A stretch of DNA of 64,000 bases from Antedon mediterranea (lineage: Eukaryota > Echinodermata > Crinoidea > Comatulida > Antedonidae): positions 19,990,001-20,054,000 of the forward strand of contig NC_092671.1 in NCBI RefSeq assembly GCF_964355755.1. Direction: 5' to 3'. Below the pieces are notes generated by a model that did not search any database, was not told the origin of the DNA, and saw nothing but the letters and a program-made list of their open reading frames with translations. The translations under genes and the position numbers were made by a program. Shown here piece after piece: positions 9,228 through 49,469 of the stretch (position 1 is its first letter; every line of letters begins with the position of its first letter).

Positions 9228-9987
9228 ATGGCTGAGGAAAAGAAGGCGAGTAAACGAAGAAGAAGAAATACCAAAGGTAACTTGACCAGGACCTTGAAGG
9301 GTATAAGAAATATATTAGTCGAAGAAAATTATGACGAAAAGGAAGTCACTGATAAGCTAAAAGAAAGCAGATGAGATATTTTCCGCAATCGAAGAAGCCC
9401 ATGCCGTACTTGTGTCTTTGATAGAGGATGAGCACGAGTTTTCTGAAGAAGAGAAATGGATGGGTCAATGTCAAGAAGAGTTCATGTCGGAGATGCTAGC
9501 AGTTAAATGTAGAATTAAGGAGATCAAAGGTAAAATAGAAATTAATGAAGACGTTAAGATAACTAATGATGCAGTTGTAGATAATACGGATAATGTGAGT
9601 AACGTAGATACACGTAATGAAGGTAACATGAATGTAGTAACTAATGCAAGTAACACATTTATAAATGATAGACAAATCGAAGGAATATTTAAAGCTATGT
9701 CTATTCCCAAATCAGTGACACGTTATTTTGATGGGAACCCCTTACAGTACCATTCATTTATGACGACCTTTAAAGAACTAGTTTCAGGAATAACCGATGA
9801 TGGTGTCAAATTAAATACTCTTTTACATTTCTGTAAAGGCAATGCATTAGAAGCCATTCAATGTTGTGTTATGAAAGAGACAACAGAGGGATATTGTATG
9901 GCATTGAAACCCCTTAAAGAAAGATATGGTAATACCGGTATAATTGTTCAAGCCTGGGTTGACAAGATCCTAAAAAACCAAAGGTAG
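9228..9987 (+). pseudogene. BEL/Pao gag, N-terminal part
   Basis: The frame opens at an ATG at 9228 with a lysine/arginine-rich stretch, breaks by a frameshift near 9363, and continues as a 191-codon open frame to 9987. The later part has the gag pattern of the BEL/Pao group: a P-x-x-x-x-R-Y-F-D-G-N segment, Y-H-S-F-M-T-T-F, and L-L-H-F-C-K-G-N-A near residues 105-150 of the open frame. Gag would package element RNA in a particle. A frameshift and a stop at 9985 show that it is broken. Confidence 0.8.
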
Positions 9988-10314
9988 ATGTTAATGACCT
10001 TAGAGTATTTTCCGATGATCTTGAGAATTGCTATGAAGCGCTAAGTGCCTTGGGATTTGTTGAAGATTTAAGTAACCAGAGAAGTTTAAAGTTAATTATT
10101 GAAAGACTTCCGAAGTTCATACAAATATGGGTGGGCTCGAGAGAATTACAAAATTAATTCAAAAGAGGATGAAGCTAGTGCCAAACTGAAAGATGTTGTA
10201 GCATTCATAAAAGCAGCTACAAGTGAAGTAAATTATCCTGTATTCGGGAGTTGCCAGTGGTAGTACTTCGGCAAAGCGGATACGGATATATCAGTTTAGC
10301 GCTGAATCAAAACG

Positions 10315-10687
10315 AGAAAATGTGAAATGTTGGATCTGTAAATCCGATGACCATTGGCTAGACCAATGTGAGGAATTTAAAGGAAAAATCCAGACGATCG
10401 GATAATGTTAGCCAAACAAAATTATGTGTGTTTTAGCTGTTTAAAGGTAGCCGGAAGAAACCATAGAATGGCAAACTGCACAAGAAAAAGGCAGTGTCCA
10501 GAAATAGTTTATGGCAAACAATGTGAGCAGAATCACCATAAACTACTGTACGATGCAAAATTGAAAGCGAAAGACAATTTAGTATGTGTGGCTACTGGCT
10601 CAGCAAAAGAAGCAATGCTTCCAGTTTTACAAGCAGAGGTGTTAGAAGAAACGAGAAATTGCAAATGTCTTATTAGGAATGGGAATT
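10315..10687 (+). pseudogene. BEL/Pao gag zinc-knuckle region
   Basis: Two cysteine/histidine clusters are visible in adjoining frames. The first, near 10325-10375, has C-W-I-C-K-S then H-W-L-D-Q-C. The second, in the frame opening at 10405, has C-F-S-C-L-K, H-R-M-A-N-C, then C-x-x-x-x-H-H-K-L-L. In BEL/Pao elements this segment binds nucleic acid between gag and protease. The two clusters are separated by a frameshift, and the aspartic protease that should follow is not recognisable. Confidence 0.7.
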
Positions 10688-10719
10688 GACATTGCGTCAT
10701 GTCAATTTAACAGAACCCA

Positions 10720-11230
10720 AGAAAGTGCAAACGAACATATAGAACACAGATTGATAGAGGATTCATGTTCAAAGGTTGGAAACCAGTGGATGGTGCCTAA
10801 CCCCTGGATGAAGGACCCTGGTAATCTTAAAGATAACCGAGTACAAGCTGAGAAAATGTTGAAAGGATTAGAAAGAAAACTCAGCAAAAGTGAAAATTAT
10901 GCAAGTGCGTATAAGCAACAAATGAAAGAGATGGTTCAATTGGGCTTCTCAAGAAAATTATCTGACATTGAAGTAAAAAACTACAGAGTTCATTATATCC
11001 CATACCATGCGGTCTTACGTCCAGAAAATCGAAGCACCCCTGTGAGGATTGTCTTTAATTCCTCAAATGTATATAATAGATAGTCAATAATTGATTATTG
11101 GATAAAGGGCCCAGACTTATTGAACAGTTTGCAGGGAGTGATGTTGCGGTTCCGAGAAAACAAAGTTGCCGTTGTTAGTGATATCTCTAAAAAATGTATC
11201 ATCGCGTGCTAATCCCAGAAATCGACAAAC
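10720..11230 (+). pseudogene. BEL/Pao reverse transcriptase, N-terminal half
   Basis: The open frame to 11083 contains Y-K-Q-Q-M-K-E-M, G-F-S-R-K-L and Y-H-A-V-L-R-P-E, followed by T-P-V-R-I-V-F-N-S-S. These are the fingers-region blocks of BEL/Pao reverse transcriptase. Weak continuation (W-I-K-G-P-D-L-L-N-S-L) runs on to about 11230 across at least two lesions. The domain is then interrupted by an insertion and resumes near 11789. Confidence 0.8.
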
Positions 11231-11232
11231 AT

Positions 11233-11788
11233 GTGCTTTCTGTGTTTATAAAAGTAAAGTTAAACATAGACTAGGACTTTAAAAAAAATGTCCATGGTTA
11301 ATGTTCACTGCGGAGTTAGAAGGTATAATAAATTGTGAGTTTTTAATAAATAAAGAAAAGGCCAAAAAAATGTGGTCAGATATGTGTATGGACCGTAACA
11401 ATTTAGCAAGGTATAAAATTAACGTTTATAAAATTGATATTTAGGTAAAGTAAAATATAACTTCTTTTTTTTTATTGCCTGAAAGAGATAAAAAGAGTTA
11501 TAAAATATTGAATTCTGTGTAAATTATACGTACATTGTTAAGGATTGAAAAACGTGTAACGAGTGTATAACATAGAGGAAAATATTTTTTTTTTTCTTTC
11601 CTTATACTATTATATATAAAATGCAATGGTAGGAGTGAGATATCAGATGTACTGAAAGTTATTTAATGTCAATTATATTGCATTGTATCATTACATTACT
11701 CATGTGCAATGCATTGTAAACGAACATTTTATTGATGAAGAAATAAAAGTGGGTCGATCCTACATAAGACAAAAAAACCCATTTGCAT
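11233..11788. mobile_element. ~556-bp insertion inside the BEL/Pao reverse transcriptase
   Basis: Reverse transcriptase coding stops at about 11232 and resumes at about 11789, with the trinucleotide CAT at both junctions (11230-11232 and 11786-11788) as a possible 3-bp target duplication. The insert is AT-rich with poly-A and poly-T runs and no recognisable open frame. Its family is unknown; a Harbinger-type element would also leave 3-bp duplications, but terminal repeats were not seen. Confidence 0.55.
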
Positions 11789-12049
11789 AGATATTTATGG
11801 AGAGACATGGAGGTTAAGAGAAATCCTGACGTTTATGTTAAGACAGTATTGACATTCGGAGATAAGCCGGCGCCAGCTATGGCCCAAACAGCTTTGAAGT
11901 TAACAGCGAAACAAAATGAAGACAGATATCCAAGAGCAGCAATGGTATTAAAGAATGATGTTTACATGGATGATATATGTACCTCAAAACCAGAGTTTCT
12001 TAAGTTGAATATTAATGACTGGCCCAATGAGAAAATCAGAAGAAGATGA
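11783..12049 (+). pseudogene. BEL/Pao reverse transcriptase, catalytic half
   Basis: The frame reads Y-L-W-R-D-M-E-V, then V-L-T-F-G-D-K-P-A-P-A-M-A, and ends with the catalytic box Y-M-D-D-I-C. This is the palm of a BEL/Pao reverse transcriptase. Shortly after the YMDD box the frame loses similarity at about 12010, and the RNase H domain appears deleted, because integrase-linked sequence starts within about 170 bp. Confidence 0.85.
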
Positions 12050-12159
12050 TGAAGCAAAACTATGCATGAACATCCAAATCGCTGATGCTTCTAATGTTAA
12101 GCTAGATGGATTAGAAACATGGGAGATCCTGCTCGAAGAGTACAGAAAGCATCTTTATG

Positions 12160-13010
12160 GACTTGAGTCTGAAGCATTAAATGTTGAGAAATTAAGAGAG
12201 CTTGAATTGATCTTACTAAGAAGGGTTCAACAAGAATGTTTTGGAGACGAATTGAAAGCATTACAGAGAGGAAAAGAAGTATAATAAAACAGTAACTTGA
12301 TCTTACTAGATCCCAAGTATGATGTAGGTACCAAGCTTATCAGAGTAGGTGGGAAACTAAGAAAGAGTAGTGGTAACTTGGAACTTGATGTTCCCCAGTT
12401 CTGCTAGAACCCAACCATAACATTACAAAACTGTTCCGAAGATGGCAGATGTCCCAGAAGCAAGATTAAGAATTGGAAAAACCTCTTTTTTCTCTACAGG
12501 AATAGACTGCTTTGGACCAATGCTAATAAAAATTAAACGATCACAAGAAAAAAGATGGGGAGTGATTTTTAAATGCCTAACAAGGCGATTAGAAATAGTT
12601 AGTGGAATGGACACTTTTTTGTTAGCGTTGAGAAGATTCATTGTAAGACGTGGAACTCCAAAAGAAATCCTTGCGGATTGCGGAACTAATTTCAAAGGTG
12701 CCGAGAGAGAGCTGAATGAAGCGTTTAATAATATGGGAGTTGAACTGCGAGAACGGCTTGCTAAACAACCGATTGAATTTAAATTCAATCCACCAGGTGC
12801 TCCTTAAAATACTGTCTCAAAGATAGAGTAATTAGTGAGGTATTACTTGCGACTATAATAGTAGAAGTTGAAGGGCTTTTGAATGCCAGACCTTTGGGAT
12901 ACGCATCCAGTGATGTTGCAGATCCAGATCCGATAACACCAAACTTGCTATTAATGACACGACGGGATTCTGCACTTCCAGGTGTTGCTGTAAAGCACAT
13001 TGTTAGTATT
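12160..13010 (+). pseudogene. BEL/Pao integrase region
   Basis: Three pieces follow in order. First, 12180-12400 carries the segment before the integrase zinc region (R-R-V-Q-Q-E-C-F, then L-I-R-V-G-G-K-L-R). Next, the 121-codon frame from 12442 has M-A-D-V-P-E-A-R-L, T-G-I-D-C-F-G-P-M, A-L-R-R-F-I-V-R-R-G-T-P and D-C-G-T-N-F-K-G-A, the core DDE fold. Finally, 12800-13000 has V-E-G-L-L-N-A-R-P-L and a P-N-L-L-L-M-T-R segment. Integrase would insert the element cDNA. Frameshifts near 12290, 12420 and 12805 inactivate it. Confidence 0.85.
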
Positions 13011-13024
13011 AGCATATGCGCTTT

Positions 13025-14493
13025 AGCCTTTCTAGCTAGGCTTAAGATTTTAACACTACAGTAGGTGTGTTTATAAAATCTCCATGAATATAATATTTAA
13101 TATGTTATTAAAAACCAAATTTTACTCTTTCAACAATGTGAATCAATGTAGGCATAGGCTTACTTTTTGTTCAATCTGAATCAAATGACAGGAATCTATT
13201 TAGATGTTATATAAAACAAATAATGAATGTTTTATATTCGTGCAATAGTACAAATAATGGCATTTCGTGAACGATGAAAGGTTTATATTTCAACTCGGCT
13301 TTGCCCGATTGTGAGTTCTCTTTAATTTTGTCAGATGTTTTACTAATACTAGGCCTATAGTATGTAATGAAACCAGCGAGCCGAACTCAGTGTATTCCGG
13401 AAATTTCGGTATTTTCAAGGCCTAGATATATCAATCTTAAAAGTAATGGAAATCGGGGGTCCACACAATCATAAACCACAAAAAAAATGAATGCATGTTG
13501 TAAAAATAACAAGGCAATATACAGTATTGCTTAGATATTTTCAATTTTTATTCCTCATAAAATAACGTAAATTATTTATAAATATATTAAAAATTATAAT
13601 ACAAACACTATTTTACATTATACATACTGTACATATTTTGAAGTATTAGGCCTATGCTGTACAAAACGTTATTAATAAAATATAAAGAAATATAACAGTC
13701 TCAATGGTTATCTTGTCTACGTCGATCCACGTTATGATCTGAGCGCATATTCTAGTTGTTGTAGTGGGTTTTTTTTTTCAAACTCTACCATTACTAATAT
13801 TAAATCAAGGTGACAAAACATATATCAGTTATTCTACATTTCACTATCAGCTTTAAATGAATTATTGTTATTCCTGTACGATGTATATATTTGTAGACTT
13901 ACAGTTAAGAAATTGAACGGAATAATTTTATAAACCATGATATTTCAAACGCGAATAGGCCTAATAATAATAAATAAACCACATAACATAAAACTCCTGT
14001 ATGTTTTCTAAAATACTATTTTATTTTTTTTAGTAGTTAGCGCCTATACGATTGCAATTAGATAGATTACTAACTATTATAGAATTGTTCACATAGCATG
14101 TCATGGGTTATTTCAGGCATAAATACGTTATCTTTATAATTAATATTTATTAAGTCATCATTAACTTTGAAAATTACCATAATTATACAGCATTTTGTAA
14201 CCTCTCTTGAGTGTGAGGTATATTGCCTCCCTACTTTCATTCGATAAGTACGGTATAATTTAATCATGCGAGCTTTTACGTCGCGTCAATTTGAAGGGTG
14301 AACTCTAGTTCTTCAAAATGTCATTGTTCAATATTCATAAGCAGTATAAAATAAGAAATGTGTTGTTTGATACACTACTAAGATAACACATGCAATATAT
14401 TTACGGATTATCGGTAAGCGTGTCATGTCGGAAGGGAGGATTACTGCCATGTTTTTCAAGATTACAGGATTCATCTTGTGTGCAGAAAACCTG
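13025..14493. other. Spacer and probable 3' untranslated region of gene A
   Basis: No coding exon or clear element is visible. On the minus strand an AATAAA hexamer lies at 14146-14151, about 340 bp past the gene A stop codon, and is a reasonable polyadenylation signal. The remainder is AT-rich. Confidence 0.45.
14146..14151 (-). other. Candidate polyadenylation signal for gene A
   Basis: AATAAA reads on the minus strand downstream of the stop at 14494. AT-rich sequence makes chance hexamers common. Confidence 0.3.
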
Positions 14494-14563
14494 CTATACT
14501 GGTGATGTTTCTTCCGACCTAGGTTCATCTTGCCTCTCAACAGTCACATACCTTTTATTCCTC
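14494..14563 (-). CDS. Gene A terminal exon: cytoplasmic tail
   Basis: After the acceptor CTTATCCACAG the exon reads R-N-K-R-Y-V-T-V-E-R-Q-D-E, then P-R-S-E-E-T-S-P-V and a TAG at 14494. Basic residues just inside the membrane fit a stop-transfer signal. The last residues S-P-V fit a class I PDZ-binding terminus (S/T-x-hydrophobic), a feature some Notch ligands carry. The tail is far shorter than that of vertebrate Jagged proteins. Confidence 0.75.
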
Positions 14564-17500
14564 CTGTGGATAAGAAACAAAAAGTAGACATAATAAAAAG
14601 ATGTGAAACTGGGGATGGTACACAATTAAAATCACGTATACATTTTAAATATATAGTCCCCATGAAAATAAATATATATAATATGCCATTTTAATGTCGC
14701 ATAACGATGATTTATAGATATTCATTTAAACCAAAAATTGGATCACACCAACATTGTGGTGGTGCCACGTAAAGGGCTATCTCACCCCGCGAGTATTTTC
14801 TGTTGGGGAATATAATCATGTAACATATCTAATCTAAATTAAATTAAATGTATGTCTTACTGTACAACGCGTAAGTAACGGGCCAGGACCTCGTGCGATG
14901 TGTTTTGAAAATAGCTAGGTGGGCTTTTGTAAGTGATTTTTGAATCAAATTTTTCTTGAATAAACAAAATATAATAGATCCTTAAATCAAGCTCTTTCAC
15001 TGTGTATAACCGATTAAAGTGGTCTCAAAATACGTCAAACCACCCCCCCCCCCCCCCCCCACCACCCCCTCCCCTTTTCTAAAAGGTCCGGCCCACGGCT
15101 ATACGATAATATTATTTTGAACTTTATTATGTCACAGCATTAAAAAATAATTCCCAGTTGTACGTCTTAGAAAGCGATCTCAGTGGTTTTCCTTTTCGGT
15201 TCACACCATCCAAGTTCAAATGAAAGAATGAATGAATGTCACATATTTTTTTTTAAACAACGGTTTTAATTTGTAAAATGTGCCATAACAAAATATCGAT
15301 TAAAACGGCCTCATTTCGGGAATATCGCTGATACAAAGTGCTGTAGTAAACGAACGTGTCGCATAATAAATATCTCACCTCCACCGTACGAGAATCAGGA
15401 GTATTATTACTGCCTGGAACACAATAATCCCTAAAATCATTCCTTCCAAAAGATTTTTGTCGGAAGATACCTGCAAAATATAAATCAACGTGTACAGTCT
15501 ATGAATGATCCATATTAACATATATTAAAATGTACGTATCAATGCATCGTGTTAATTATAACATGAACTCTGAGAGTCAAAAGAGAGAAAGTTACTTAAT
15601 TTAACAGTTAATAAATAAAATGTATTGTATGTGGAAAAGCTACAATTTTTAATCACCTATAGTAATAAAAATGTTGGAAACATAAAATATTAACATTACA
15701 TTCGTAAAATTACGCCGTACTAATTCATACGAAGAACAGCCTTACCTCCGTATTCGTATTAGCGCTCCCGTTCTCGTCGTCTTCGGCTATTGTATTTGGA
15801 CTCATAAGTTTGGCTCGTTCACCTTCAGGTATTGAGTTTATTATTTTATCGGCATCACTTTCCGCTATCATTGTGTTGTTTATGTAGATCACAAATACCA
15901 CTTGAGTAAGATCGTCACTAGGAATACGAGATCAATATTAGTTATAAGTGATAAACTTTGTCACGACGAATTTTTGCATGATGTTAACGTGGAATATTGT
16001 TTATTTTTAGTCGCGTGGACGCGACTCTATAGTTCACTATGTCAGTCGGTCGGTCTGTCGGTCCGGTATGACTATGCGTTTTAGCACGCAACTTATGGCT
16101 GTTGGCCTTGTTTATTTATATATTCGTTAAAACCTGAAATAGGCCTACCATGAAAAAATAACTTATTTCACCATGGCCCTATTATAATTTATATTGACGT
16201 TAGAATATATGGCCCATTAACTGATAATATTTAATAATGCATAAATTGATGATGTCTGTATGTTAAAGTGTAATTCCCAGAGAGGCTTAACATAATTAAT
16301 ATTCACACTTCACATTACAGTAGTGTCTCGTGAGAGGTAATTACATTGAGTGTTTATTATACTCTCAATATGAAAGTAACCAAGTGTACTATTATTATAA
16401 TTTTGTCGTGGAAACAAATGAATGGCATACGGTACTATCTAAAAACGATATTGTGCTTGTTAATTCCGATGTTTTGTATTTAAATACTTAATCCATTTTA
16501 TTTGTGTACAATATGTTTATGGTATCAATACCATTGAAGGGTTTTAAAGAAAATGCATACTCACTGTTGATTCTGGTTTGCTGGGACAAATGTCTGAACG
16601 AATACATCTTCTGTTCCTGGAATGTGTTCTTTGATCAAGTTTGAAAACTTCGTTTCTAATTCTGTCAGATCTAACTTATTTGTATCTTTAACCGAGATCT
16701 CAATTCCACTTTCCATAGAATCTGAAGAACAAGAAAAAAAAATGATTTACATATGTTTACACGTACATGACATGGTCACGCAAGCCAAAACAGTATAAAA
16801 CTACATTCACTTAATTTCACGGAAAGAAATACGGCGCTATTCAGTATTATTCGTGATTTTCCATTATTTTAACAAAACAGCGTAACACGAAAAAGGCGTG
16901 AATTTAGCTTTATTTAGTGAAATCACCGAACTCACCTAGTTCACATCGTTCTCCTACAAACGGATCTTGACATATGCACGTAAACGTACCAACGTCATCG
17001 ACGCACGTCCCACCGTTCAAACATGGAGAACTTGAGCATTTCCTAATGTTATATTCGCAATACTGTCCTTCAAAGCCTTCATGACAAACGCACTTGTGAC
17101 TGTTGATTTCATCTATGCATATACCAGCGTTCATACAGGGTGAACTATCACACTCATCAACGTCGATTTCACATAGTTCTCCTTCAAATCCAGCGATGCA
17201 CTCACAATTAAATTGATCAATACTATGGGTACACATACCGTTATTCAAACAGGGGTTACTCGTACACTCATCAGCGTCGTGTTCGCAAAGCTTACCATAT
17301 CTTCCTGAAGGACATTGACATTTAAACAAAGGTTGCAGGTTAATGCAATTTCCTCCATTTTGACATGGAGACGTGTCACATTCATCAATATCTTGATCAC
17401 AGTCATCACCTATAATAATATACAATATACGGTAACAATCATACCTTTCAAAACAATATACCGGGGTAAAATTGTAGCAAATTACATAAATAAAAGTTGT

Positions 17501-20500
17501 AAAAAATATACCAATAACTTTTATAAGAACGCATTTCATGAACATGTGTTGTTATTGTTTGAAATACTATCTTTTTATAAGACAATAATTTTCCCATTTC
17601 TTGTGTCCCGATTTTAAACGTTTAAACGATACAGCAATTATAGCCTAATAGTAACCTGTACCATGGAGTAATATTCCATGCCTAGACTAATAGGCTAATA
17701 ATATAGTTTCCATGACTTATATTTTTTTTTCATTTTGTTCTTAATTTCTTGAAAATTCCAACCCGAATTCTTATTTATTGATAAAGTGGAGCTTACCAAT
17801 CCCGTTTTCCAACAACAACAACAGAGAACAGCGCGTTAAAAACCTCTTCCATGTACAATATATTATATATAATTTGTTATGATTACAATGTCTGAGCATA
17901 GTATTTACCCACTGAACTTTTACTGCTGGGTTAACAGACTAAAAATACGGTTGATTTAAAAGTAGGTTTTCAACTTAATTAGGTAGGCTTCCAGCACAGA
18001 TTAACTATACTCAGAACAGATTTTAAAAACGACCAACATTCCAACATAATCTGAAAGTGGGCTTACTGAAGATTTACTAATCGGCTTAAAGTCTCGATTG
18101 AATTAGCTTTAAGTTAATTCATGAGAGGTTGCAGGATTTCAACTTCAGCGTATTTTAAAAGGCATGATACAAAAGAAGGCATGAATGAGAGTTATGTAAT
18201 GAAAGAGCCTACACAATAAACCACAGAGAGACACACAGATAAGCCTAAAGCTCACTTGACTTATAGAAAGTCAGATTCAATACATGTCATTATGGATGCA
18301 TATTATTCTTAAGTAATTTTCCTTCAGGTTTTTTTTTTCGAGGTAAGCATCTAAATTAATTTACTAAACGAGTGCGTTTCACAACAATGATAAATTTGTG
18401 TAGAGTGAGATTAATCTTCGTGTGACGAGACGATTTTTTTGGTTGATTTAGGAAAACCCAAGAATGACGATTAGTTTAAACAATACTTATGTTAAATTTT
18501 AAGTTCAATCACTTTTATGGATATTTTCACGGTTGAAAATAACGTAGCTCTCATGTAACTGTACCGTACTGTTTTAATAGCAGTAAAACATGAAATCAAA
18601 CGATATTCGTACTTTATTAATACTTAGTAGGAACAAATATCTCCTTGAATAGAAAACCCTAATTAAGGAAAAGAGAATACTGTTTTACTATACAAATAAT
18701 AAAATGTTTGAATGAATGGGGATCGGAATATGTTCATTGAAAGGCTCATTCAACGAGACGGAGCCGAGTTGAATTGAACAGTCAGACTTTTGACGAATTA
18801 CATATTATCTCTTACTCAAAGAACAATTGACTCATTATTGTTTTATAATAGGCATGTTGGCCTGAAGTAAACTTGTATTCAATTAATCCGCCATTTACAG
18901 TACACCTTAAAAAATGTTGATTGTCAAAGGCTTACAACTGCCGTGCATTATCAAATATTCACGTCGTACACACATCTGAATCTATACATAAATTTACGTA
19001 AGTCGTAAGAACAAAATTCGGTAAATCTGGCGTTACTGTCTAATGGAGGATGTCAATGCTGAAAAATACCCGCACACAATAATACAGGGATGCATTTACC
19101 TCCTTCTACAAAAACTTTTTTAATAGCTTATAAACCGGTCAAACAGCTCGAATAACATGCATACAGCATCATAATGTTCAAATTTCATAACAAAATACTA
19201 TTTTAATAGATTTAATATACGTTTATATGTACGCCTATTGAAACGCAAATTTCTTACTGTGAGTGTGGGTACTGGTATTATATATAAACACATTATTATT
19301 ACTGACAATTGCTTCTCAACGTTTGTATTGATTAATAATAATAATTATTAATATTAATAATTTAATAATTTTACAATTCCCTGGTGTAATTAACTCACGC
19401 TGTGATACAGTAAATACATTAAATGAATGTGCAACGGAATTTGAGAAACCAATGGTTCTATTGTAATAAGTTAACCCGATATTGATGAACAATGTGCATG
19501 CATTAGTACTTGATCCGATACTAAAAATACGAAACATAAAAGAAGTCACAGGTAGAAATTAGCTTTAAAAAGTCTATGTAAATACGGACTGATTTAAGCC
19601 GATACATTTTACGGTTTTATACTTCGCAATAAGCTACATCATTGTGGTATACATCATTGTAGTAAGGAGCTACATCTTTGTAGAAGGATCTGCATCATCG
19701 TGTGGCATGAGCTACATGATTGTAGGTATGAGCTAGGTCTATACCATTTTAAAAGGATCTACACCGTCCATTGTATTTAAAAAAAATTTAAACGTGCAGG
19801 ATAACATAATTTAGAAAATAAATAAGATGTTTAGTTTATAATAATACGATCCTGTTCACAGAACAGTACAATTGGTCGTTATCGAATTTCTGAATTTTCA
19901 TATAAAAGATGTATAAACATTGACTAACCTGAGTATCCCGGAAAACATTCACATGTATATGTGTTTAATGCAGATGTACAATTTCCATATTTACAGTTTC
20001 CTAGTTTACATGGATCCAGACGAACTTCACATCGGTCTCCTGTAAACATTAAAGAGTGTACCATAAAGGATGTGCCAACGGAAATTCAATCACGTGAACA
20101 TATGGCAAAATCGTTATTTCATTCAAAATTTCAGCTTCAATCATTGATCATTCTAGCATGAAGACTATGAAAGGCTTTTGAAAAAGATCAACAAAAATTA
20201 ATCATACAATTCTTGTATCAAAAGAAGTATTTGAAGGCCCACCTTTTATCTAAAACAATTTTCCTAGGCTTTATAATTCTACAATTGGTCATTGTCGAGA
20301 TTAAGGCTATTTATGGTAGCGGTCAAGTTTTGCCAGAGGGTTTTTCTACAAGTTCAAGAGGCCACACATAGGCTTTGTCTCAAATTGACAAGAATACTTC
20401 AATTGGTAATGTTTTATTGGTGTTTTTTAAAATAAATAAATTAAAAATCAAAATGGCCATGTCATGGACCCCAAATCATTATTATTATAAATATTATTAT

Positions 20501-23500
20501 TAATATTAAATTACTGAATTTTACCTGTAAAACCACTTGCACAATGACATTTGACACGTTTCCCAGTCTCGATACATTTTCCTTTATTGAAGCAAGTATT
20601 TGAGTGACATTCTGTATCTCTCTGTGAACATCCAGGTCCAGTAAAACCAACTTCGCAATATAACCTAACTTTTATTGTAGTTCTGTAAAATTTAACAAAA
20701 ATCACAATCTGTCATCAGAAATAAATTCTTGCAGCATCATTTGTAGAGACACAAATCAAGGGAACATGTTTTGTAAACATGAATCACTACTACAAGCGAC
20801 CAAGACATTTTACAAGAAAATTGCGTTTTAATATACGAGTCTCGCCACTAATCAAAATAGCATCTAGAAAAGTACGTATTGTATGATTAACCCTCAACCC
20901 TACATAAAGTTATAAAGCGATTCTAGTACGATGTCTGGTCTATAAACAGGGGAATGTTTCATATCAGCGGCGGTAACGTCAAACGCCGGTAAATAAAGCA
21001 ATCTATAACACAAGAATGCCACTGAGAAATGTTATGAGACAATATACGAACAATTTTCATGACATTATCTCATTTTTACAGGAAAAATGTTCTGACCCAA
21101 TTTTCAATACAGCAAACTAGCTGGGGAGTTTGGCCCAGCTCATAAAAATACATCGCGAGAGAAAACCAGAGAGAACTCGATGGAATAAACATTGTACAGA
21201 CAAAACACAATGAAATTATTAAATTTTATGATAATTGTCCAGTATAACAAGTGTTGCAATGACGGGGAATGTTTATAAAGGGCTACTGAGATGAAATGAA
21301 TAAAGTTAGGAGTTAAGCCTATCCTTGTCAAGGCCAGTGCATATTTAGGTCGTGTTTATACAACACCCTAAATTTGAACACGGCTTTAATTTTTAGCGTG
21401 TTGTTCGGACCGAGGTCAACCCACCTTAACGTTTGCTGTTATACTAGAAATCACGATACCGTGTTATACCGGAAGTTTCATCAACACGCAGTGACTGCGT
21501 GTTGATGAAACTTCCGGTGAGTGCATGCTAGGATAAAAGGTCAAATCGTTGATCGCGCTTGAATTGGCTGAGTTGTCAACAATCATCGTCGCCTCCTCGC
21601 TGTCCGATGTATTCGCGCGGTTTTTACCATTTTCATTATATTGTATTCGTTCACGTTTGCATTGTTGTTTATTTTGTTCTCGGTTCATTTAAATTAATAA
21701 CAGTTATTTTAAGGGTTTCATTGTTTCATCTATACACTATGGAAGAAGATGCCATTTTTGCGATGTTATTTTTTTTTATTCTGTTTGGAGTGGGAAACGA
21801 TAGAGGCCTACTACCACTACGAGTTGGCCCCACTAGGCTAGGCGTAAGACGTGGTAGGAGGATGATTGCTGGCAGCGAAGCAGCAATAAATGGGCCCAAT
21901 CTTGTTAGCAATGATTGATATTACGACCTGTTTTAACGAGAGGTCAAAATATACCCTGAGGACACTTCCAACACGGTAACGGCGACCGGGAATCCACCAA
22001 ATTTTAGGATTCAGCCAAGTAGCCTTTTTTGCAATTAAAATCTCATTACACGGAATCTCTTTGTTGTTATACAACACACTTTTCGTAGGCGTGTAGAATA
22101 TGCGTGTAATAGCGTGTTGTATAAACGCGCCCTTAGAATCATCGGTAGAGGTATCATAATATACCGAACAGGAAATGCCAAGAAGCTCATGGATATTAAT
22201 GACCTCCATAGAAATTTCCTAACCACTGAAAAAAGGTTTTACCCGGAAACAAGACAAATTATCAAATTATCTTTTTTTTAATCAGGTTATATTTATTGCA
22301 AAATTTTTCTTTGAGAAGTTATTTTCCCTTAATCAACATTAGTTGACAAGGTGATACAATGTTAGAAATGTCATTATTGGCTCCAACCTTTAAGTGTTAT
22401 TAATTTTATGAGACCTTGACTTATTAACGAAGTTTAAGGTCATTATACATATTAAACATCAGGTACAATCGTTATAAATCAACGCACACCAATAATATGT
22501 ACATTTTGTAAGTGCCATGCGAATTGCGTTGATCCATGAGCATATTAATGTATAACCCTTAGGAGATGACAACAGTTGAGGTGATTGAAGCTGTAAGAAA
22601 ATACTACCTGCTAATTCGGGTATAAATGCCTTTCTTTCTTTTAGTTTCTACATGAGTTGTTCTTTTATGTGATTTGGCGCATACTTAGCTGTACGGCTTT
22701 AAGAATAAAATAAGATCGCATAGTCGAGAGGCTCGAATTCGGGGCAAATATTTGAACAACGCAAAGGAAGTGAAAACGAGTTGAGATAGCAAGCAGTCTG
22801 CGTGAGACGAAAATGTACATACATCGTCAATTAATTTGCATTTACCTGGTTTTTCCGTTACTGTTTTGCAACACACGTACTTGTGGCTCCTCTGAATCAC
22901 TTCCAAACGTTTGAATATCACTTATGTTGGTACTGTTACGATATAAAAGATCGTCTTCTCTCTTGTCCCAATCATGAACTTCTATTGTGATTATCTTATC
23001 GGAATCTTTACTCTGTGAAAAAACAATGACGCTTTTTTTATTCTGTAAGTACACTCGAGGTAATAATATTCAGAATTACAATTAATACAGTTTTTCTGAT
23101 ACAAAAAAAAATCAAAACCCGGGTTAGCGAATCTGTAATATAAAGCTTTTGCAACCATATACCAACAATGTTTTAATAATTTTAAACAAATATGTATATA
23201 TCTGGAAAAATGTGTAAACATAGTACGCTGAAATACAACTAGTTATTACCCGGTTAACAACATTCCATGTCACCAAAAACCAATACAATTTATATCTTTA
23301 AACACTATAGTATTACTTAAATTCATGATGTTGGGTGAAACACAAGGGTGTTATTACGGTATCAACGGATGCAGTGCCTATATTGTTTCTTTTTCCTATA
23401 AAAATAACTCGGAGGTACTTTTTAATGGCTGATGCAGTGTTTTGATAAGGTTTGGAAATAGTATAGGTTATACTTACCGGCCATTCTGGGACATGTATTT

Positions 23501-25397
23501 CAAATGGATTTGGTATTGACGGCAATGACGAGTTGTGATTTGGCAGTTCAGACGGAAAGGCGAAGTTATCATTATTGCGATACACAATATCAGTTTTAAC
23601 ACAATTGTCTGCAATATCACTGAAAAAATATAAAATTTCGTATATTATATATTTATCATTATAGAAGAACATTAAAGTAAAAAAGTATGCGGAAGTATGA
23701 TTTCATGATTTAATACATAGAATCTTGTAGATGAACATTACATGTTCACAATTCAAATTGAGCACACATACGGATAAAGGCTGTAAGGCTGGCGTATCGT
23801 ACGCATTTGTGTAAATGATATAGACATGGGTGTTGCTAATATTACCACCACATCCTTGACGTTGTGTCAATGTTTCTCGAGCTCACCTCCTTAGTACACA
23901 TAGTTTAAAGTAGTTGTCACACATGCCGTTATCACATCTGATACCACTATGATCCAGTCGGCCATCGCTTGTAAAAGACACCAATTCGATTTCCGCTATC
24001 AGTGAACAACGGCCAATAATCTAGTACGATCAAATATTAATGAAATAAGTAAGTAATAAGTAATGATTAAATAATTAGAGCAATCTTTAAAAAATATAAA
24101 ATAATGATAACAAATTTTGAACATAATACACTATTAGGCCTACATGGTTATAATTAATTTGCTATTGACTACAAGGAATTGCATAATTAATATTTTTAGT
24201 AGAGCAATGACCATCATAAACAAGGAATTTTACATTCTCAGAATATTAAGGCTGGTAGGCCTACACACAATTCAGAAGTAAATTACATACTTAAATAAAA
24301 ATTGAAGAACTGAATCATTCATACACTAGTAATGTCATTCATATAAAAGTATTACACACTGTTGTAAATTTTGAATTCCGACCAAATGTTGAACAAATGA
24401 CCTTGAACTGCCCTTTTTAGACTTGTACCAACCATAAGTACGAAACACTGATATACTTTAATAATGGACCATGATTTTTAATTCGTTTTATCGGTGCTTA
24501 CTTGCAATAGAAAAAAAAAATCATTATGTCTGCGATATTATGAACAATACGTTTTTAGATTTGTATCTTTCTCTAGATAAACATTTTGACAATGTTTCTT
24601 TTGTCAGGAAAGTAAGAAACTAATAACCTATATGAATATGCTTAATAATTATTGACCAATAGGTTTGGCTTGTTCTTCGTAACTTTTACATTAATTCTAT
24701 TGTATTACTGTTATTTCTTTAGTTTACAGTGTTTGTACACAGGAAGCTAATAGATTACATTACGGCGGAAATAATAATAATAATAATAAGTGTAAAGGAA
24801 GCTTAGATTTTACTAGGATGGGTAAAAGAATACTCTTCCCTTGAAAAACAAATTTGACTCGATTAATTGTTTGTCAAATGGATGTTTCTATAAATACACT
24901 AGGCCTACTTAATATAATACCAGTATGTAAGTTGGAGTGTGGAACAGACTGACACTGGAATAATGCAATGGAGTTGATTACATCCTGAATTGAATGTTTC
25001 ATTGTAGCGTACTTGTTACGTGTACGATGAGTGAGTACCGTACTTTTTCTGGTTACGGAAAATCCTTCTTTTTAAAATCCTATTAACCTTGTAAAATTTT
25101 AATTCAATTGTTATCTTATTTTGTAAATGATATATATGAAAACTGTATATTTATAAAATGATTTAAATATTGTTTGCATCCGACCACGCTCATTCTAACT
25201 AAAACGGTAATAAAATACGGATAGTGTGTGTACATAAAATACTGTTGATATAACAGTATAAGAAGTATACAACAGATACTAAACATGTATTGGTTAAAAA
25301 TTATAACTTACATCAAGTTTAAAAAGTCTGATGCAATTTGTAGAAATAATACGAAAACGGATAAATGCAGTTTTAAGCTGAAACCGGAAGAAACCAT
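14494..25397 (-). CDS. Gene A: Notch-ligand-like (Jagged/Serrate-type) membrane protein lacking a full DSL domain
   Basis: I rebuilt eleven exons from splice signals and phases: 25312-25397, 23887-24020, 23478-23619, 22846-23012, 20525-20682, 19929-20039, 16936-17409, 16565-16721, 15746-15917, 15379-15470 and 14494-14563. They give about 585 residues. All joins after the first keep one frame. Order: signal peptide, MNNL-type domain, short C-x8-C remnant in the DSL position, six EGF repeats, juxtamembrane domain, transmembrane helix, 25-residue tail. In Delta/Jagged proteins the MNNL and DSL domains bind Notch on neighbouring cells; here the DSL core is missing, so canonical activation is doubtful and a co-ligand, decoy or unrelated adhesion role is possible. 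The Jagged cysteine-rich region between EGFs and juxtamembrane domain is also absent. Join between the first two exons is unresolved. Confidence 0.75.
15043..15060. repeat. Poly-C tract of 18
   Basis: Eighteen consecutive C within a larger C-rich run (15040-15074), in intron sequence of gene A. Confidence 0.9.
15379..15470 (-). CDS. Gene A exon: transmembrane helix
   Basis: The exon lies between acceptor TTTTGCAG and donor GTGAGA. It encodes M-I-L-G-I-I-V-F-Q-A-V-I-I-L-L-I-L-V, then R-W-R. A hydrophobic run of about 18-20 residues followed by arginines indicates a single-pass type I helix. Phase is 0 in and 2 out, the same as the transmembrane exon of gene B (61013-61110). Confidence 0.85.
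15746..15917 (-). CDS. Gene A exon: juxtamembrane domain, second half
   Basis: Encodes D-D-L-T-Q-V-V-F-V-I-Y-I-N-N-T, then A-D-K-I-I-N-S-I-P-E-G-E and an acidic linker to the membrane. The pattern (a strand ending in N-N-T or N-N-S, then a helix with K-I-I/K-N-M) matches the gene B exon 62260-62416 and the region before the membrane in Jagged/Serrate. Splice ends: acceptor ATTCCTAG, donor GTAAGG. Confidence 0.75.
16565..16721 (-). CDS. Gene A exon: juxtamembrane domain, first half
   Basis: Encodes S-G-I-E-I-S-V-K-D-T-N, then L-D-L-T-E-L-E-T-K-F-S-N-L-I and V-F-V-Q-T-F-V-P: a strand-helix-strand pattern like SEA-type folds and the Jagged juxtamembrane region. It follows the last EGF directly. 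Acceptor TTCTTCAG, donor GTGAGT. Phases (1 in, 2 out) equal those of gene B exon 62647-62806. Confidence 0.75.
16936..17409 (-). CDS. Gene A exon: EGF repeats 3-6
   Basis: One 474-bp exon holds four complete six-cysteine EGF modules of about 38 residues. The first three open with the calcium-binding signature D-I-D-E-C, D-A-D-E-C or D-V-D-E-C; the fourth has N-I-R-K-C and so lacks the full signature. G-F-E-G-E-L-C and G-F-E-G-Q-Y-C turns are typical. Acceptor TTATAG and donor GTGAGT, phase 1 at both ends, as is usual for EGF exons. Confidence 0.9.
19222..19330. repeat. Dispersed repeat (partner at 32868-32975)
   Basis: A segment with AAATTTCTTACTGTGAGTGT, a TATAAACACAT run and TTTGTATTAATTATT-like ending recurs in the same orientation at 32868-32975. 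The copies are diverged and noncoding. This copy lies in an intron of gene A. Confidence 0.65.
19623..19775. repeat. Degenerate ~26-bp tandem repeat
   Basis: Variants of GAGCTACATCATTGTAG recur about every 25-30 bp (AGCTACATCATTGTGG, ATACATCATTGTAG, AGCTACATCTTTGTAG, ATCTGCATCATCGTG, AGCTACATGATTGTAGG). It lies in an intron of gene A. Confidence 0.6.
19929..20039 (-). CDS. Gene A exon: EGF repeat 2
   Basis: Encodes D-R-C-E-V at the end of EGF1, then L-D-P-C-K-L-G-N-C-K-Y, T-Y-T-C-E-C-F-P-G-Y-S. Cysteine order fits one short EGF module finished by the next exon (G-D-D-C-D). Acceptor TTTACAG, donor GTTAGT, phase 1 at both ends. Confidence 0.8.
20525..20682 (-). CDS. Gene A exon: shortened DSL position and EGF repeat 1
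   Basis: After the acceptor AATTTTACAG the exon reads T-T-I-K-V-R-L-Y-C, then E-V-G-F-T-G-P-G-C, then a six-cysteine EGF (T-E-C-H-S-N-T-C-F-N-K-G-K-C). In Jagged, I-R-V is followed by a DSL domain with six cysteines. Here only one C-x8-C pair remains, resembling the last DSL segment. Phases (2 in, 1 out) fit both neighbours, so no exon need be missing, although a skipped in-phase exon between 20683 and 22845 cannot be excluded. Confidence 0.7.
21348..22132. mobile_element. PIF/Harbinger-like non-autonomous element
   Basis: Inverted ends GGTCGTGTTTATACAACACC at the left and the complement of GGGCGCGTTTATACAACACG at the right are flanked by TTA at 21345-21347 and 22133-22135. TTA or TAA duplications and GG-starting ends are typical of PIF/Harbinger elements. 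The 785-bp interior has no credible transposase and contains a 51-bp palindrome. It sits in an intron of gene A. Confidence 0.65.
21468..21518. repeat. Perfect 51-bp palindrome (25-bp arms, 1-nt centre)
   Basis: The arm 21468-21492 (ACCGGAAGTTTCATCAACAC...) pairs exactly with 21494-21518. Such a tight palindrome can extrude as a cruciform and is usually unstable, so it is either very recent or kept by the element that carries it. Confidence 0.95.
22846..23012 (-). CDS. Gene A exon: MNNL-type domain, third part
   Basis: Encodes S-K-D-S-D-K-I-I-T-I-E-V-H-D-W-D, an acidic/polar loop (K-R-E-D-D-L-L-Y-R-N-S), and a region ending N-G-K-T-R. The I-x-I-E-V-x-D-W-D strand corresponds to the L-L-V-E-A-W-D strand of Jagged MNNL domains. 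Acceptor TTTCACAG, donor GTAAAT; phase 0 in, 2 out. Confidence 0.75.
23478..23619 (-). CDS. Gene A exon: MNNL-type domain, second part
   Basis: Encodes D-I-A-D-N-C-V-K-T-D-I-V-Y-R, then I-P-N-P-F-E-I-H-V-P-E-W-P at its end. In Jagged the matching exon also ends in a hydrophobic strand closing with W-P just before the next exon. Acceptor TTTTTCAG, donor GTAAGT; phase 2 in, 0 out. Confidence 0.75.
23887..24020 (-). CDS. Gene A exon: MNNL-type domain, first part
   Basis: Reads A-E-I-E-L-V-S-F, then G-R-L-D-H-S-G and C-D-N-G-M-C-D-N-Y-F-K-L-C-V. This matches the start of Delta/Jagged ligands: an E-L-x-I-x-x-F strand, G-x-L, then C-x4-C-D-x-Y-F-K-x-C. The acceptor CGTACTAG places the exon in phase 0; an alternative acceptor at TGATAG would shorten it. 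Donor GTGAGC. Confidence 0.75.
25312..25397 (-). CDS. Gene A candidate first exon: signal peptide
   Basis: An ATG at 25397 opens M-V-S-S-G-F-S-L-K-L-H-L, then S-V-F-V-L-F-L-Q-I-A-S-D, with a GTAAGT donor after 28 codons plus two bases. Basic start, hydrophobic core and small residues give a good secretion signal in the right place. The exon ends in phase 2, whereas the next recognised exon starts in phase 0, so either an undetected exon lies between or this exon belongs elsewhere. Confidence 0.4.
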
Positions 25398-28107
25398 ATC
25401 GGAACAAAACTATGCAATTTCCTTTCATCACTTCAATTAAAATAATACTGTATGTACCATTTACGTACTGGCACTAAGACTGCAGACTGGGTCAAATCAT
25501 GGAGGTATAAAAATAGAAGGAGAGAGCTCGAATGTATGTAATCTGCTTAATCCAATTAACAGGATGTGCGATATGATATTTTCAAAGCCGAAGCCCTGTA
25601 CCTCCATGGTCAAATAATATACCACACTGTGCTATTAAATATTATCATTATTTGTATACATATCGTTTTTCATATAAAGTTAGAAAAATAATAATGTTAT
25701 TAGGTCGCCTGCAACCTACCATCCATTGACATTGAACCTAATGACAGTAGGACTACCATGCATTCGGTAATAGGTCTACTCTATTATGGAGGAATTCCTC
25801 TCCGTATAGTTTCTTTCGCTATGGTATACAAAGCTTGTCAGTGACAGCGAAAAGGAATAACTACCATTGAAGGCTTGTATGACACATTGTAGAAATCGGT
25901 ACAGTAATTACAATTGTCACTTATAGTGTCTCACTAAACGACCCAACTATGAGTTTTTGAGTGAAAGTTCCCACAAATTATACATTCAAATTTTAATTTT
26001 TTTATTTTTATTTTATTCAGTTGTCAACCAACAGCGATGAAACCGCCACTAACAGGTTGAATCCTTCCTTGCGTTAGTGCGCTCCCTCCCCTTTACATTA
26101 ATTAACCGAAATGCATATCATAAATGTGAATACTGTAAATAACCCATCAGTCAATACGTCAGACTTGTACCTACTCCTGTCAATAACAAAATATAACGTG
26201 TAAAGGGCAACAAATCAAGTGTCATGGGATTTACATCGTGTACACGTTATTCGGGTTAAAAACAAGCTCTGTGATTGGAAAAATTCCTATATAGACCTAT
26301 TATTGTTTCTCTTTACTCCTTGTTATTAATTATACTTATGACAATGCAATTTATATTAAAAGACATAATAATTTGAATGTAACTAAAAACAGTGGATGCC
26401 GCAATCACATTTTTCTCTACTTTACATGTATAATCTAAGGTTGGTAGGCCTACAAAATCTTACAAAATTACGTTCATTGAAAACACTCAATTCATCTTGC
26501 AGGAATTAAAATATTTGCTTTTGTATGAAATAATTGTCAATTCAAAGTGGTACTGTAACACGATTGTCACAGAGGAATTGATTTATACAGTATAAGTCAT
26601 TATATTATTGAGCTTTCAGTGTAGGCATACATGTGCATATAGTGTGTCAGTGACACAAGCAAGATAATACGAGACGGTTCATTAATGACAGAATGAATTG
26701 CATAGGAGTATTTATTTAAGTGGTAGGTGGGGTTCCTCAAGATTGTGCTTTATTACGAAATTGTATCATAAAGATGGAATATACGTTAAGCATAATGCGA
26801 AATATTATGGAGAATGGTGCAATCGACCAGTCAATGACGAGCCTCTCAGAGGCAGACCTATAATTATAAATCATATGTTGCTCTACAGAAGTATGTATAT
26901 AATATGTAGACTCTAGTGCCTAGCCTCTCCTAGTGAACATTCATATAATAATGAAGATAACAACGAAGCACGTTGTATACATTGATACAACCTAAGGTAC
27001 TTACCACGCTTAACGAGTTTATTATACAAGCAACGAGGTAAATTTTGAAAATCATTATAATCCCAAGAGAAATATTGTTACGCTAGAAAAATGAGTATTG
27101 CAGTGCTGTACAGTGATGATGGGCGTTCGGTTCGGTAGTGTCTTCGCTGTATCTGCCAATATAGTATACTATACTGAGACTCATATAGAGCGCTCTCTAT
27201 ACTACAGACGCAATTACATTGGATGGAGCGTCCATGTGATTGGAGAAGCATGATACAATACGTCCTTTGATAAGATAAGTACCTGTATTTTCCTCCCAAT
27301 GAATGGGATTACTACATTAATATAGGGCGTATTACACACAATAGGTGACACTTTAGTTTCGTTGGCACGTGACCATGGATACAAATGTAAATGAAAAATT
27401 GTAGTAGTGTAGGCCTAGCTACATACCCCTTGTTATGTTTCTTTTTCGTTATCTTACTTTCATAGGTTTCTTTTGATTTATCCTTTTGATCGTATAGACT
27501 TACTGTATAGAAGCATAGAAAGACACCAATAATATATAAAATCGACTGTGTGTGGCCTACAGAAAAGTCATGGCAATATGTAAATAATCGGTTAAACAGA
27601 GAAAATACAAAAATAGCCTTGAGAGCGATGGAACAAAATAATTGCGAATGTGTGAAAGGGCAATTTTTTAAACGAATGATTAGACACCTTTATGTTAGGT
27701 CCATTTTGAAAATGTAGAAGAAGCACGAGAGTGTGCTAATGCACTCGATGATGATGTTGATTATGATGTTGATGATTGATCGCACACATTGTGTAACTGA
27801 TGAAAGTTCAATGATTTTATGGAGATAACCTGTCACTAGCACTATAATATAATACTATCATCAAAATAGTCCCTTTTCGTTGCATCATTTATTAGGTATT
27901 AAATTAAATACGGTGGAGAAAATAGTACATTACGGTACATTAGTCTAATATTTTGTCCTATATTTTATATAATGTACATAAAGGCAGGCTTAACCCAAGA
28001 CAAATTGACAAATTGTAAGTACGGATGATGTGCCCTCTGCGCTTCAAATTCAAAATGTATTAAGGTATGGTTAAGCAACAACATTTACCCAAAAAAAAGA
28101 ACAAAGA
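25398..28107. other. Intergenic, upstream of gene A
   Basis: No exon was recognised. A 123-bp inverted-repeat element is at 25492-25614. CAACCAACAGCGATGAAACC near 26029 recurs inverted near 33135-33155. Otherwise AT-rich with no structure I can name. Confidence 0.5.
25492..25614. mobile_element. Small MITE-like inverted repeat
   Basis: TCAAATCATGGAGGTA at 25492-25507 is matched inverted by TACCTCCATGGTCAAA at 25599-25614. The same end sequence appears back to back as the palindrome at 323-338, suggesting a dispersed family. Confidence 0.5.
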
Positions 28108-47993: not shown

Positions 47994-48779
47994 TTAAACG
48001 AATGCATACGTACGTACGTAGCTTTTAAAGGCATCAGAGGACCAACGACCCATTTTTTGAGTTATATGTTCTGACAGCCAAAGACCCGCGGCATGTATAG
48101 CTGCCCCTATTCTGAAACTGTGACCTTTATATTAAATAAATGAAATTGCTGTCTTAAGACATGTTGATATGAATTGTGGAGTTACCGGTTTATCATCTAT
48201 GTGTTGGAACAGAGGGCCGTTGGTATGGCTGAACATGCCTAAGTACGTACGGAGATGGTGCACCGGGCAAAAACCCTGATCGTTTTGGGAAGTAATATGG
48301 ATAGTAATAGGTGGTTTTCCCGTCGAAGTTTTGGAATGGCGCAAAGTTAAATTCATCCCCTTGGGAGAAAAATTAACGTCTTCGCGCTGTAGTACCTTAG
48401 CTTCCATGCCTGTTCGGGCGGCTAACTCGCCAACTCGCATGAAACCCTGGAACGCGGTCAAGAAAAAGGCTGACAAAAGATTTCTAATTTTTAAAGACAG
48501 AACTGTTGAGTCTAGGGCTCTGATTAATTTTCTGAGAATGTCAATTGTAATCGGCAAGCGCGTGTTCCTAGATTGTGAAGAAGCATGTATACCACGAAGT
48601 GTTTTCCTGACAAGAAAAGAATCTGATGGGTCTGAGAAACTGTGAATTTTGTGGATAAAACAGATAGCCGAAACATGTAAATTTATCGTGCTTGGTGCAT
48701 ACCCTTTTTCAAATAAGAATGCGATGAAATTACAAAGGTGGGTAGGGAGAAGCGGTAGATTATTTTTACCTATGACCAC
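47994..48779 (-). pseudogene. DIRS/Ngaro tyrosine recombinase
   Basis: The first 215 codons include S-A-I-C-F-I-H-K, L-V-R-K-T-L-R-G-I, R-V-G-E-L-A-A-R-T (first catalytic arginine), R-H-S-K-T and C-P-V-H-H-L. After a frameshift near 48130 the other frame gives G-H-S-F-R-I-G-A-A (H-x-x-R box), then M-G-R-W-S-S-D-A-F-K-S-Y-V-R with the nucleophile tyrosine, stopping at 47994. It would integrate circular element DNA without target duplication. Except for the shift the active-site set looks complete. Confidence 0.85.
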
Positions 48780-49436: not shown

Positions 49437-49469
49437 AGATTTCCCATTAAAGTTGTTCGCAAATTCTAA

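Follow-up and report, generated by a model that had tools for sequence, protein, structure and literature searches.

Organization of gene A and the surrounding cluster

The analyzed window, a 64,000-nt stretch of Antedon mediterranea DNA, contains a gene (gene A) whose located part lies on the minus strand at 23995–14494 and comprises 10 exons encoding 549 residues. In the protein, an MNNL/C2-like head encoded by three exons is followed by a DSL remnant with two cysteines, by six EGF repeats and a juxtamembrane module, and finally by a single transmembrane segment (TM) and a short tail. Gene A belongs to a same-strand cluster together with three relatives, designated B, C, and Z, all of which retain DSL domains. 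The features are listed below.

23887–23995, minus strand: exon 1 of the located part, first third of the MNNL/C2-like head (EIELVSF...CDNGMCDNYFKLCVLR); acceptor GATAG, donor GTGAGC; aligns with paralogues B and Z
23478–23619, minus strand: exon 2, middle third of MNNL, with EWP at its end; FxFP...NP...W conserved with B and Z
22846–23012, minus strand: exon 3, last third of MNNL, with the calcium-loop-like motif HDWDKREDD; from the splice model and MNNL alignment
20683–22845, minus strand: intron 3, 2,163 nt; no missing DSL exon found by DSL-profile scan and cassette enumeration
20525–20682, minus strand: exon 4, truncated DSL (one C-x8-C pair) and EGF1; homologue of a 269-nt exon of paralogue B
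19929–20039, minus strand: exon 5, EGF2
16936–17409, minus strand: exon 6, EGF3 to EGF6
16565–16721, minus strand: exon 7, first half of the juxtamembrane module, aligned with B and C
15746–15917, minus strand: exon 8, second half of the juxtamembrane module
15379–15470, minus strand: exon 9, transmembrane segment (GMILGIIVFQAVIILLILV)
14494–14563, minus strand: exon 10, short cytoplasmic tail with the TSPV end and stop codon; 3' boundary placed at the stop
60746–64000, minus strand: 3' part of paralogue B (EGF array, juxtamembrane module, TM, tail); cluster coordinates minus 20000

All nine introns joining the 10 located exons have GT-AG borders and consistent phases. The reading frame contains no stops over 549 codons, and the TM and tail are intact. 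The located protein has 42 cysteines, namely, 4 in the MNNL domain, 2 in the DSL remnant, and 36 (36/36) in the six complete EGF repeats. The three-exon MNNL pattern described in an earlier sequence-only reading was confirmed, as were the joins at 22846/20682 and the stretch IKVRLYC-EVGFTGPGC-SQRDTEC, which leads directly into EGF1. The start exon which that reading placed at 25397 was rejected, since the ATG exon leaves its donor (25311) in phase 2, whereas the open frame before EIELVSF has only two AG acceptors, accepting phase 0 or 1, so that no in-frame join exists. A scan for a signal-peptide exon of gene A (to ~61 kb) gave two weak candidates in its strict form and four in its relaxed form, none of them convincing; the relaxed scan gave three weak candidates upstream of B and one upstream of Z. 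The supported extent of gene A is 14494–23995 plus a first exon that these scans did not locate.

The 114-kb cluster contains no N. Like gene A, its relatives lie on the same strand and have the same exon phases in the MNNL/DSL part: the manually built models of A, B, and Z show 2-0-2-1, and that of C, for which the first MNNL exon was not located, shows 0-2-1. The MNNL and complete DSL exons of B lie beyond the window. The whole DSL domain and EGF1 form a single exon in B and C; in Z, the DSL part after Cys5 alone sits in the next exon. B and C (C partly by eye) also resemble A in the juxtamembrane module, TM, and short tail, while Z was compared at the N-terminus only. Unlike A, the three relatives have retained DSL domains, with eroded contact loops: of the Jagged1 residues F199, R201, R203, D205, and F207, none (0/5) is retained in B or in C, and only F199 in Z. 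In the phylogenetic tree, A, B, and Z grouped together at 83/93, which is under the threshold mark of the tool; the branches are long, and a long-branch artefact may account for the joining of A with B. The branch of gene A is the second-longest of the nine rows.

The shortened DSL exon

In the DSL region of gene A, one C-x8-C pair is left and four of the six DSL cysteines are absent. The Pfam DSL model (PF01414) did not report gene A and had no match anywhere inside the window. The exon encoding DSL and EGF1 has a length of 158 nt in A versus 269 nt in B, a difference of 111 nt (37 codons); 30 of these extra codons, as counted on the protein, lie between Cys1 and Cys5. Exon 4 of gene A has the intron phases of the DSL and EGF1 exon of B and C on both sides, its first nine residues (TTIKVRLYC) are identical at 6 of 9 positions to the DSL start of B (TTIDVAVYC), and the C-x6-C spacing into EGF1 is kept.

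The one-gap alignment scored 104.5 for a junction of Cys1 with the Cys5-Cys6 loop, as against 94.9 with Cys1-Cys2 kept, whereas the remnant fell under Cys1-Cys2 when A was aligned with B and Z by MAFFT. By the one-gap score, a fusion of Cys1 to the Cys5-Cys6 loop is favoured over Cys1-Cys2 by a modest margin, and four cysteines are gone on either alignment. On the favoured alignment, all five of the above Jagged1 residues fall within the stretch lost from gene A; on the alternative one, position 199 would stay, as R.

A skipped exon in intron 3 encoding the missing cysteines was also searched for. The intron contains 56 open cassettes of 24–210 nt in phase 2/2, of which seven encode at least two cysteines and none at least four; in 30 shuffles of the intron, the cassettes with at least four cysteines averaged 0.73, with a maximum of 14. 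In the DSL-profile scan of 3,530 six-frame pieces of the window, the best piece was the one holding exon 4 itself (11.1 bits), and the runner-up (10.2 bits) was on the opposite strand. The idea of a missing DSL exon was rejected on these two analyses of the six frames and of the phase-2/2 cassettes.

The architecture, homology, and shortened DSL exon of gene A are shown by the sequence, and no spare exon was found. The analysis supports the earlier view that gene A is related to the Notch ligands and has almost no DSL domain. That single-gene view was right about the near loss of DSL, whereas a cluster in which the other DSL domains also erode was invisible to it. Judging from the sequences compared, gene A looks like the end of a series of DSL erosion in the cluster.

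The MNNL/C2-like head

The Pfam MNNL model (PF07657) did not report gene A, so the Pfam hit by which the MNNL assignment was to be checked did not appear. Homology was instead recovered with a profile of the MNNL domains of four Pfam-positive paralogues, A and B being left out: the head of gene A scored 40.6 bits, and the best of 1,000 shuffles scored 7.1. On the evidence of this profile, the head is an MNNL homologue. All six Pfam MNNL matches in the genome (6/6) lie within 13 kb of a DSL match located on the same strand of the same contig. Structures of a Delta (E 5.9e-36) and a Jagged1 (E 7.6e-33) were matched by a profile that combined six genome members, among them gene A.

The head contains a D-x-D...DD pattern (HDWDKREDD) resembling the third calcium loop of a C2 domain. 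This sits opposite WDSSND of Jagged1 (D140/D144 region), the exact pairing being ambiguous and the assignment a motif reading. Binding of membranes by the head is predicted from this calcium-loop-like motif and seems plausible. Compared with Delta of the same genome, the head of gene A has a shorter strand 2-3 region; in the ligand head, this region is described as site 1 for Notch EGF12 (PMC5538765).

EGF repeats, juxtamembrane module and tail

EGF1 and EGF2 of gene A match the ordinary six-cysteine pattern and not the Delta/Jagged type (DOS; absent from some ligands), and the Delta/Jagged EGF model PF21700 gave 11.1 bits, below the cut-off of 27. The cytoplasmic tail is not long (~25 residues, one lysine). 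Canonical Notch ligands have a long cytoplasmic tail used for ubiquitin-driven endocytosis.

Comparison of the B copy of the juxtamembrane module with Pfam gave no family above the cut-off, and the profile of the A, B, and C copies gave nothing convincing against the PDB (best E 0.12, an acyltransferase). A genome search with the module of A returned only A itself and a weak match to B (E 0.07); the copy in C, missed by this search, was spotted by reading.

Comparison with known systems

Gene A shares with Delta and Jagged (Serrate) the MNNL/C2 head, the MNNL-to-EGF order, the EGF repeats, and the single TM; it differs from them in the absence of four of the six DSL cysteines and of the Notch-contact residues, in its ordinary EGF1-2, and in its tail of ~25 residues. 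DLK1 and DOS-type non-canonical ligands have membrane-anchored EGF repeats and are not known to have a DSL domain or an MNNL head. EGF repeats on a membrane anchor are common to these ligands and gene A, whereas gene A retains the MNNL head and falls below the Delta/Jagged EGF model cut-off. Within the DSL family, DLL3 is a precedent for the absence of trans activation of Notch, although it is drawn with a DSL domain (PMC4391858), whereas that of gene A is mostly deleted. Bivalve genes with DSL only and choanoflagellate proteins that have either MNNL or DSL but not both, as reported in PMC8166818 and PMC6040629, indicate that the two domains are separable or can be rearranged; those cases concern presence/absence or DSL arrays, whereas in gene A, which belongs to a cluster, the shortening can be traced within one exon. 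Among the matches listed for literature on MNNL/DSL Notch ligands, DSL-lacking proteins, and echinoderm/sea urchin ligands, the titles and opening lines included no gene cluster encoding an MNNL protein whose DSL is deleted.

Possible origin and role of gene A

We consider it rather likely that gene A is a divergent member of a Notch-ligand-like cluster with an in-frame DSL deletion, which would be unable to bind or activate Notch in the usual manner and may have a role in contact with membranes or at the cell surface. A single in-frame deletion of some 30–34 codons inside the DSL-plus-EGF1 exon would have taken four of the six DSL cysteines together with the Notch-contact face and fused the start of the DSL domain onto its last disulphide loop. 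The encoded product is still intact, disulphide-balanced, and membrane-anchored, and would presumably be unable to bind Notch EGF11 or to activate Notch normally. Its C2-like head and EGF stalk may then act in membrane or cell-surface contact, that is, in adhesion or recognition, a role that other eroded cluster members may share.

Because most of the Notch-gripping DSL domain is lost, gene A is probably not a normal Notch ligand or Notch activator and probably represents a C2/EGF surface protein. The earlier suggestion that it binds membranes or Notch without activating the receptor is retained here as regards non-activation, as a deduction, and membrane binding is plausible. The accompanying decoy or co-ligand reading is weakened, since the Jagged1 DSL residues reported to be important for cis and trans interactions are gone, the head has a shorter site-1 region than Delta of the same genome, and EGF1-2 are ordinary. 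We regard it as unlikely that gene A inhibits Notch signalling in cis or acts as a decoy, still engaging Notch or competing with Delta/Jagged via MNNL and EGF in a manner comparable to DLL3 or DLK1. Membrane anchoring and the retained MNNL head and six EGFs are compatible with such a role, DLL3 is reported as a DSL protein without trans activation and with cis-inhibition in vitro (PMC4391858), and the DLK1 literature includes phrases such as 'lacks the DSL'. However, the Jagged1 DSL residues lost here are reported to be important in cis as well as in trans (PMC3415683), and both the shorter site-1 region, as compared with Delta of the same genome, and the EGF model score (11.1 versus 27 bits) argue against it.

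Decay of a non-functional duplicate, with the DSL loss as an early step of pseudogenisation, is improbable: the second-longest branch and the lack of a convincing signal-peptide exon in the strict and relaxed scans would fit it, but 549 codons without a stop, 9/9 GT-AG introns in phase, 36/36 EGF cysteines, and the intact TM and tail do not, and the shortening is in frame and leaves the cysteine number even. Still less probable is the replacement of the DSL exon by an EGF exon through exon shuffling. A PDB search with the remnant and EGF1 does return pairs of Notch EGFs (best E 1.5e-10), and C-x-x-G-F-x-G-x-x-C resembles the closing loop of an EGF; however, TTIKVRLYC matches the DSL start (6/9 with TTIDVAVYC of B), the C-x-C expected of an EGF is absent before the loop, and the phases on either side are the same as for the DSL exon in B and C. 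Least probable of all is a DSL domain that is really present and hidden by a skipped exon, alternative splicing, or an assembly or haplotype deletion. The sequence represents one assembly only, but intron 3 holds no DSL-like cassette, B and C have the whole domain in the matching exon (Z splitting off only the post-Cys5 part), the 114-kb cluster contains 0 N, and an in-frame error deleting two whole disulphides is unlikely.

Beyond the deletion in gene A itself, we tentatively suggest that the cluster could be a lineage-specific family whose Notch-ligand scaffold has been freed from Notch: DSL would erode stepwise (B, C, Z) and be nearly gone in A, and the C2 head, together with a variable EGF stalk, would form a new system of contact or recognition at the cell surface. 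Notch ligands are defined by their DSL domain, and gene A, standing beside relatives with an eroding DSL, is a natural experiment on a C2 head and EGF stalk minus Notch binding. In 2017, the C2 head was described as having a membrane role that tunes Notch signalling (PMC5538765); gene A would allow this role to be examined separately from Notch, and the cluster informs how duplicated signalling ligands change into something else.

Structure of Gene A

Gene A, a Notch-ligand-like gene on the minus strand, was read in the 13.4–26 kb region of the window with exact placement of splice sites. Ten exons run from 23995 to the stop codon at 14494; nine of nine introns are GT-AG and in phase, and 549 residues are encoded without a stop. 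The exon joins proposed in the sequence-only reading are correct. Its start exon at 25397 is rejected on phase: the donor leaves two bases, and the two AG acceptors that lie in the open frame ahead of EIELVSF would require zero or one. Strict and relaxed scans for another first exon gave no good replacement. The models of gene A and its same-strand paralogues B, C and Z were made by hand from one assembly. The gene A domains are arranged as follows:

Exons 1–3, minus strand: MNNL (C2-like head)
Exon 4 (158 nt), minus strand: DSL remnant and EGF1
Exon 5, minus strand: EGF2
Exon 6, minus strand: EGF3–6
C-terminal part, minus strand: two-exon juxtamembrane module, then a transmembrane exon, then a short tail

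The 42 cysteines are distributed among the MNNL (4), the remnant (2) and six complete EGFs (36). EGF1–2 are of the ordinary type by appearance, and the tail comprises approximately 25 residues.

The juxtamembrane module (15746–16721, minus strand; ~110 residues) is common to A, B and C, and no convincing Pfam or PDB relative of it was found. The gene A tail (14494–14563, minus strand) terminates in TSPV; by eye, the gene C tail terminates in ITSV, and we take both to resemble PDZ-binding ends. Intron 3 contains an inverted repeat with perfectly matching 25-nt arms separated by 1 nt (21468–21518), perhaps a small transposon remnant.

The Cluster and the Shortened DSL Exon

The DSL domain of gene Z lies on one side of gene A (C2:19974050; C2 is contig NC_092671.1, of which the window covers 19990001–20054000), and those of B (C2:20058389) and C (C2:20074163) on the other; the 114-kb cluster sequence contains no N. 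In the located parts, intron phases from exon 1 to exon 5 are identical in A, B and Z (2-0-2-1). Gene C, whose model lacks the first MNNL exon and ends inside the juxtamembrane module, matches over its located part (0-2-1).

In B and C, a single exon holds the complete DSL together with EGF1; the hand-placed donor of the Z exon precedes the last DSL cysteine. The matching exon is 158 nt in A versus 269 nt in B, making that of A 37 codons shorter; by count, 30 of these codons fall between Cys1 and Cys5 of the domain, the rest lying just before it and in EGF1. The nearly absent DSL of the sequence-only reading is supported.

One-gap alignment of exon 4 with eight DSL exons scored best (104.5) when TTIKVRLYCE was joined to the closing G-[FYW]-x-G-x-x-C loop, skipping 34 profile columns; an alternative retaining Cys1–Cys2 scored 94.9. 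The Cys1-to-closing-loop breakpoint is preferred on these alignments, a preference short of proof because the MAFFT alignment limited to B and Z favoured the Cys1–Cys2 placement. Under either alignment four cysteines, that is, two disulphides, are lost and parity is maintained. Jagged1 DSL disulphides pair consecutive cysteines, according to PMC3415683, and the lone pair of gene A could therefore still close.

A skipped DSL exon is not expected, since B and C hold the DSL inside the matching exon. In intron 3 (20683–22845; 2,163 nt), among 56 right-phase open cassettes of 24–210 nt, seven had at least two cysteines and none at least four. When the window, divided into 3,530 six-frame pieces, was scanned with a profile of the genome's ten DSL domains, the top piece contained exon 4 (11.1 bits), followed by one on the opposite strand (25861–25923; 10.2 bits).

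Gene C also contains a run of near-identical EGF repeats (C2 ~20071800–20073300) that looks like a recent tandem expansion within one exon. Elsewhere in the window, reading-frame pieces in several frames at 9361–13064 (plus strand) look, by reading, like a BEL/Pao-type retroelement. Between genes A and B, tyrosine-recombinase/reverse-transcriptase-like pieces (48132–50373, minus strand) and LINE-type endonuclease-like pieces (53545–55085, minus strand) were noted by eye.

Identity of the Head

The Pfam MNNL and DSL models, the check suggested in the sequence-only reading, reported no match on the gene A protein at E up to 1; genome-wide, they gave six MNNL and ten DSL matches at E 0.001. A profile was built from four MNNL domains above the Pfam cut-off (gene Z, two genes on contig C7 and a Delta gene on contig C10, the last row probably one exon short), with A and B left out. 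The gene A head scored 40.6 bits against it, whereas 1,000 shuffled versions of this head reached at most 7.1. With B added, the scores were 56.7 versus 10.1 bits. The alignment with relatives retains CDN-F--C, F-FP, NP, a tryptophan late in exon 2, and D-x-D. By these profile scores and motifs, the head is a strongly diverged MNNL. A genome search with it found no second high-identity copy, the next matches having at most 32% identity; such whole-genome searches scored the best candidates only, and further DSL-less relatives may have escaped.

Erosion of Notch-Contact Residues

The Notch-binding face of the Jagged1 DSL consists of F199, R201, R203, D205 and F207 (PMC3415683). Under the favoured alignment, all five positions fall within the stretch lost from gene A. 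None of these residues occurs in B or C, and F199 alone in Z; the Cys3–Cys4 loop, 11 residues long in Jagged1, has a length of 10 in Z, 9 in C and 7 in B. Of the ten DSL domains matched genome-wide, one (the C10 Delta) has F207 and four have R203. The Jagged-like gene on C10 (named by eye from sequence, as was the Delta) also departs, with H at 203 and a loop of 10, and erosion therefore extends beyond the cluster. A second Notch contact is a loop of the C2 head (PMC5538765); the genome's Delta has a longer loop here than gene A. Short tails are also present in B and, by eye, in C. Because of the lost contact residues, the shorter C2 loop, the ordinary EGF1–2 and the short tails, gene A is best regarded as the extreme case of an erosion affecting the whole cluster.

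Five more DSL genes lie outside the cluster and C10 (C7:316794–318549, C7:545595–547884, C2:6772852–6777793, C2:9597165 and C2:38309215). None has F207, and where their sequence was read the DSL seems to be followed immediately by an ordinary EGF. An expanded set of Notch-ligand-like genes is apparently present in the genome.

Possible Function

The predicted product carries its C2-like head on an EGF stalk anchored in the membrane, with most of the Notch-binding domain gone. Normal activation of Notch by such a protein is improbable, and the head and stalk may act at the membrane or in cell-surface contact. The D140A/D144A substitution abolishes Notch-stimulated liposome binding of Jagged1, as described in PMC5538765. 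In the calcium-loop region, Jagged1 has W-D140-SSN-D144 (chain offset 31) and gene A HDWDKREDD, in which aspartates are present with ambiguous pairing. By analogy with DLL3 (PMC4391858), gene A might possibly be a cis inhibitor or Notch decoy; however, it lacks the residues reported as used for such binding, and Jagged1 DSL-face mutants alter both trans and cis interactions (PMC3415683).

Relation to Known Notch Ligands

MNNL or DSL occurring separately in choanoflagellates (PMC6040629) and DSL-only genes in bivalves (PMC8166818) have been described. Literature searches on MNNL/DSL Notch ligands, echinoderm and DSL-lacking forms included, gave no description of the gene A form in titles and opening lines. 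A tree of the Notch-ligand-like genes, with long branches and open forks, adds little. Among canonical Notch-ligand features, gene A has the MNNL and lacks the six-cysteine DSL, the contact residues, the Delta/Jagged EGF type and the long tail. These features set it apart from the canonical Notch ligands, from which it is derived.
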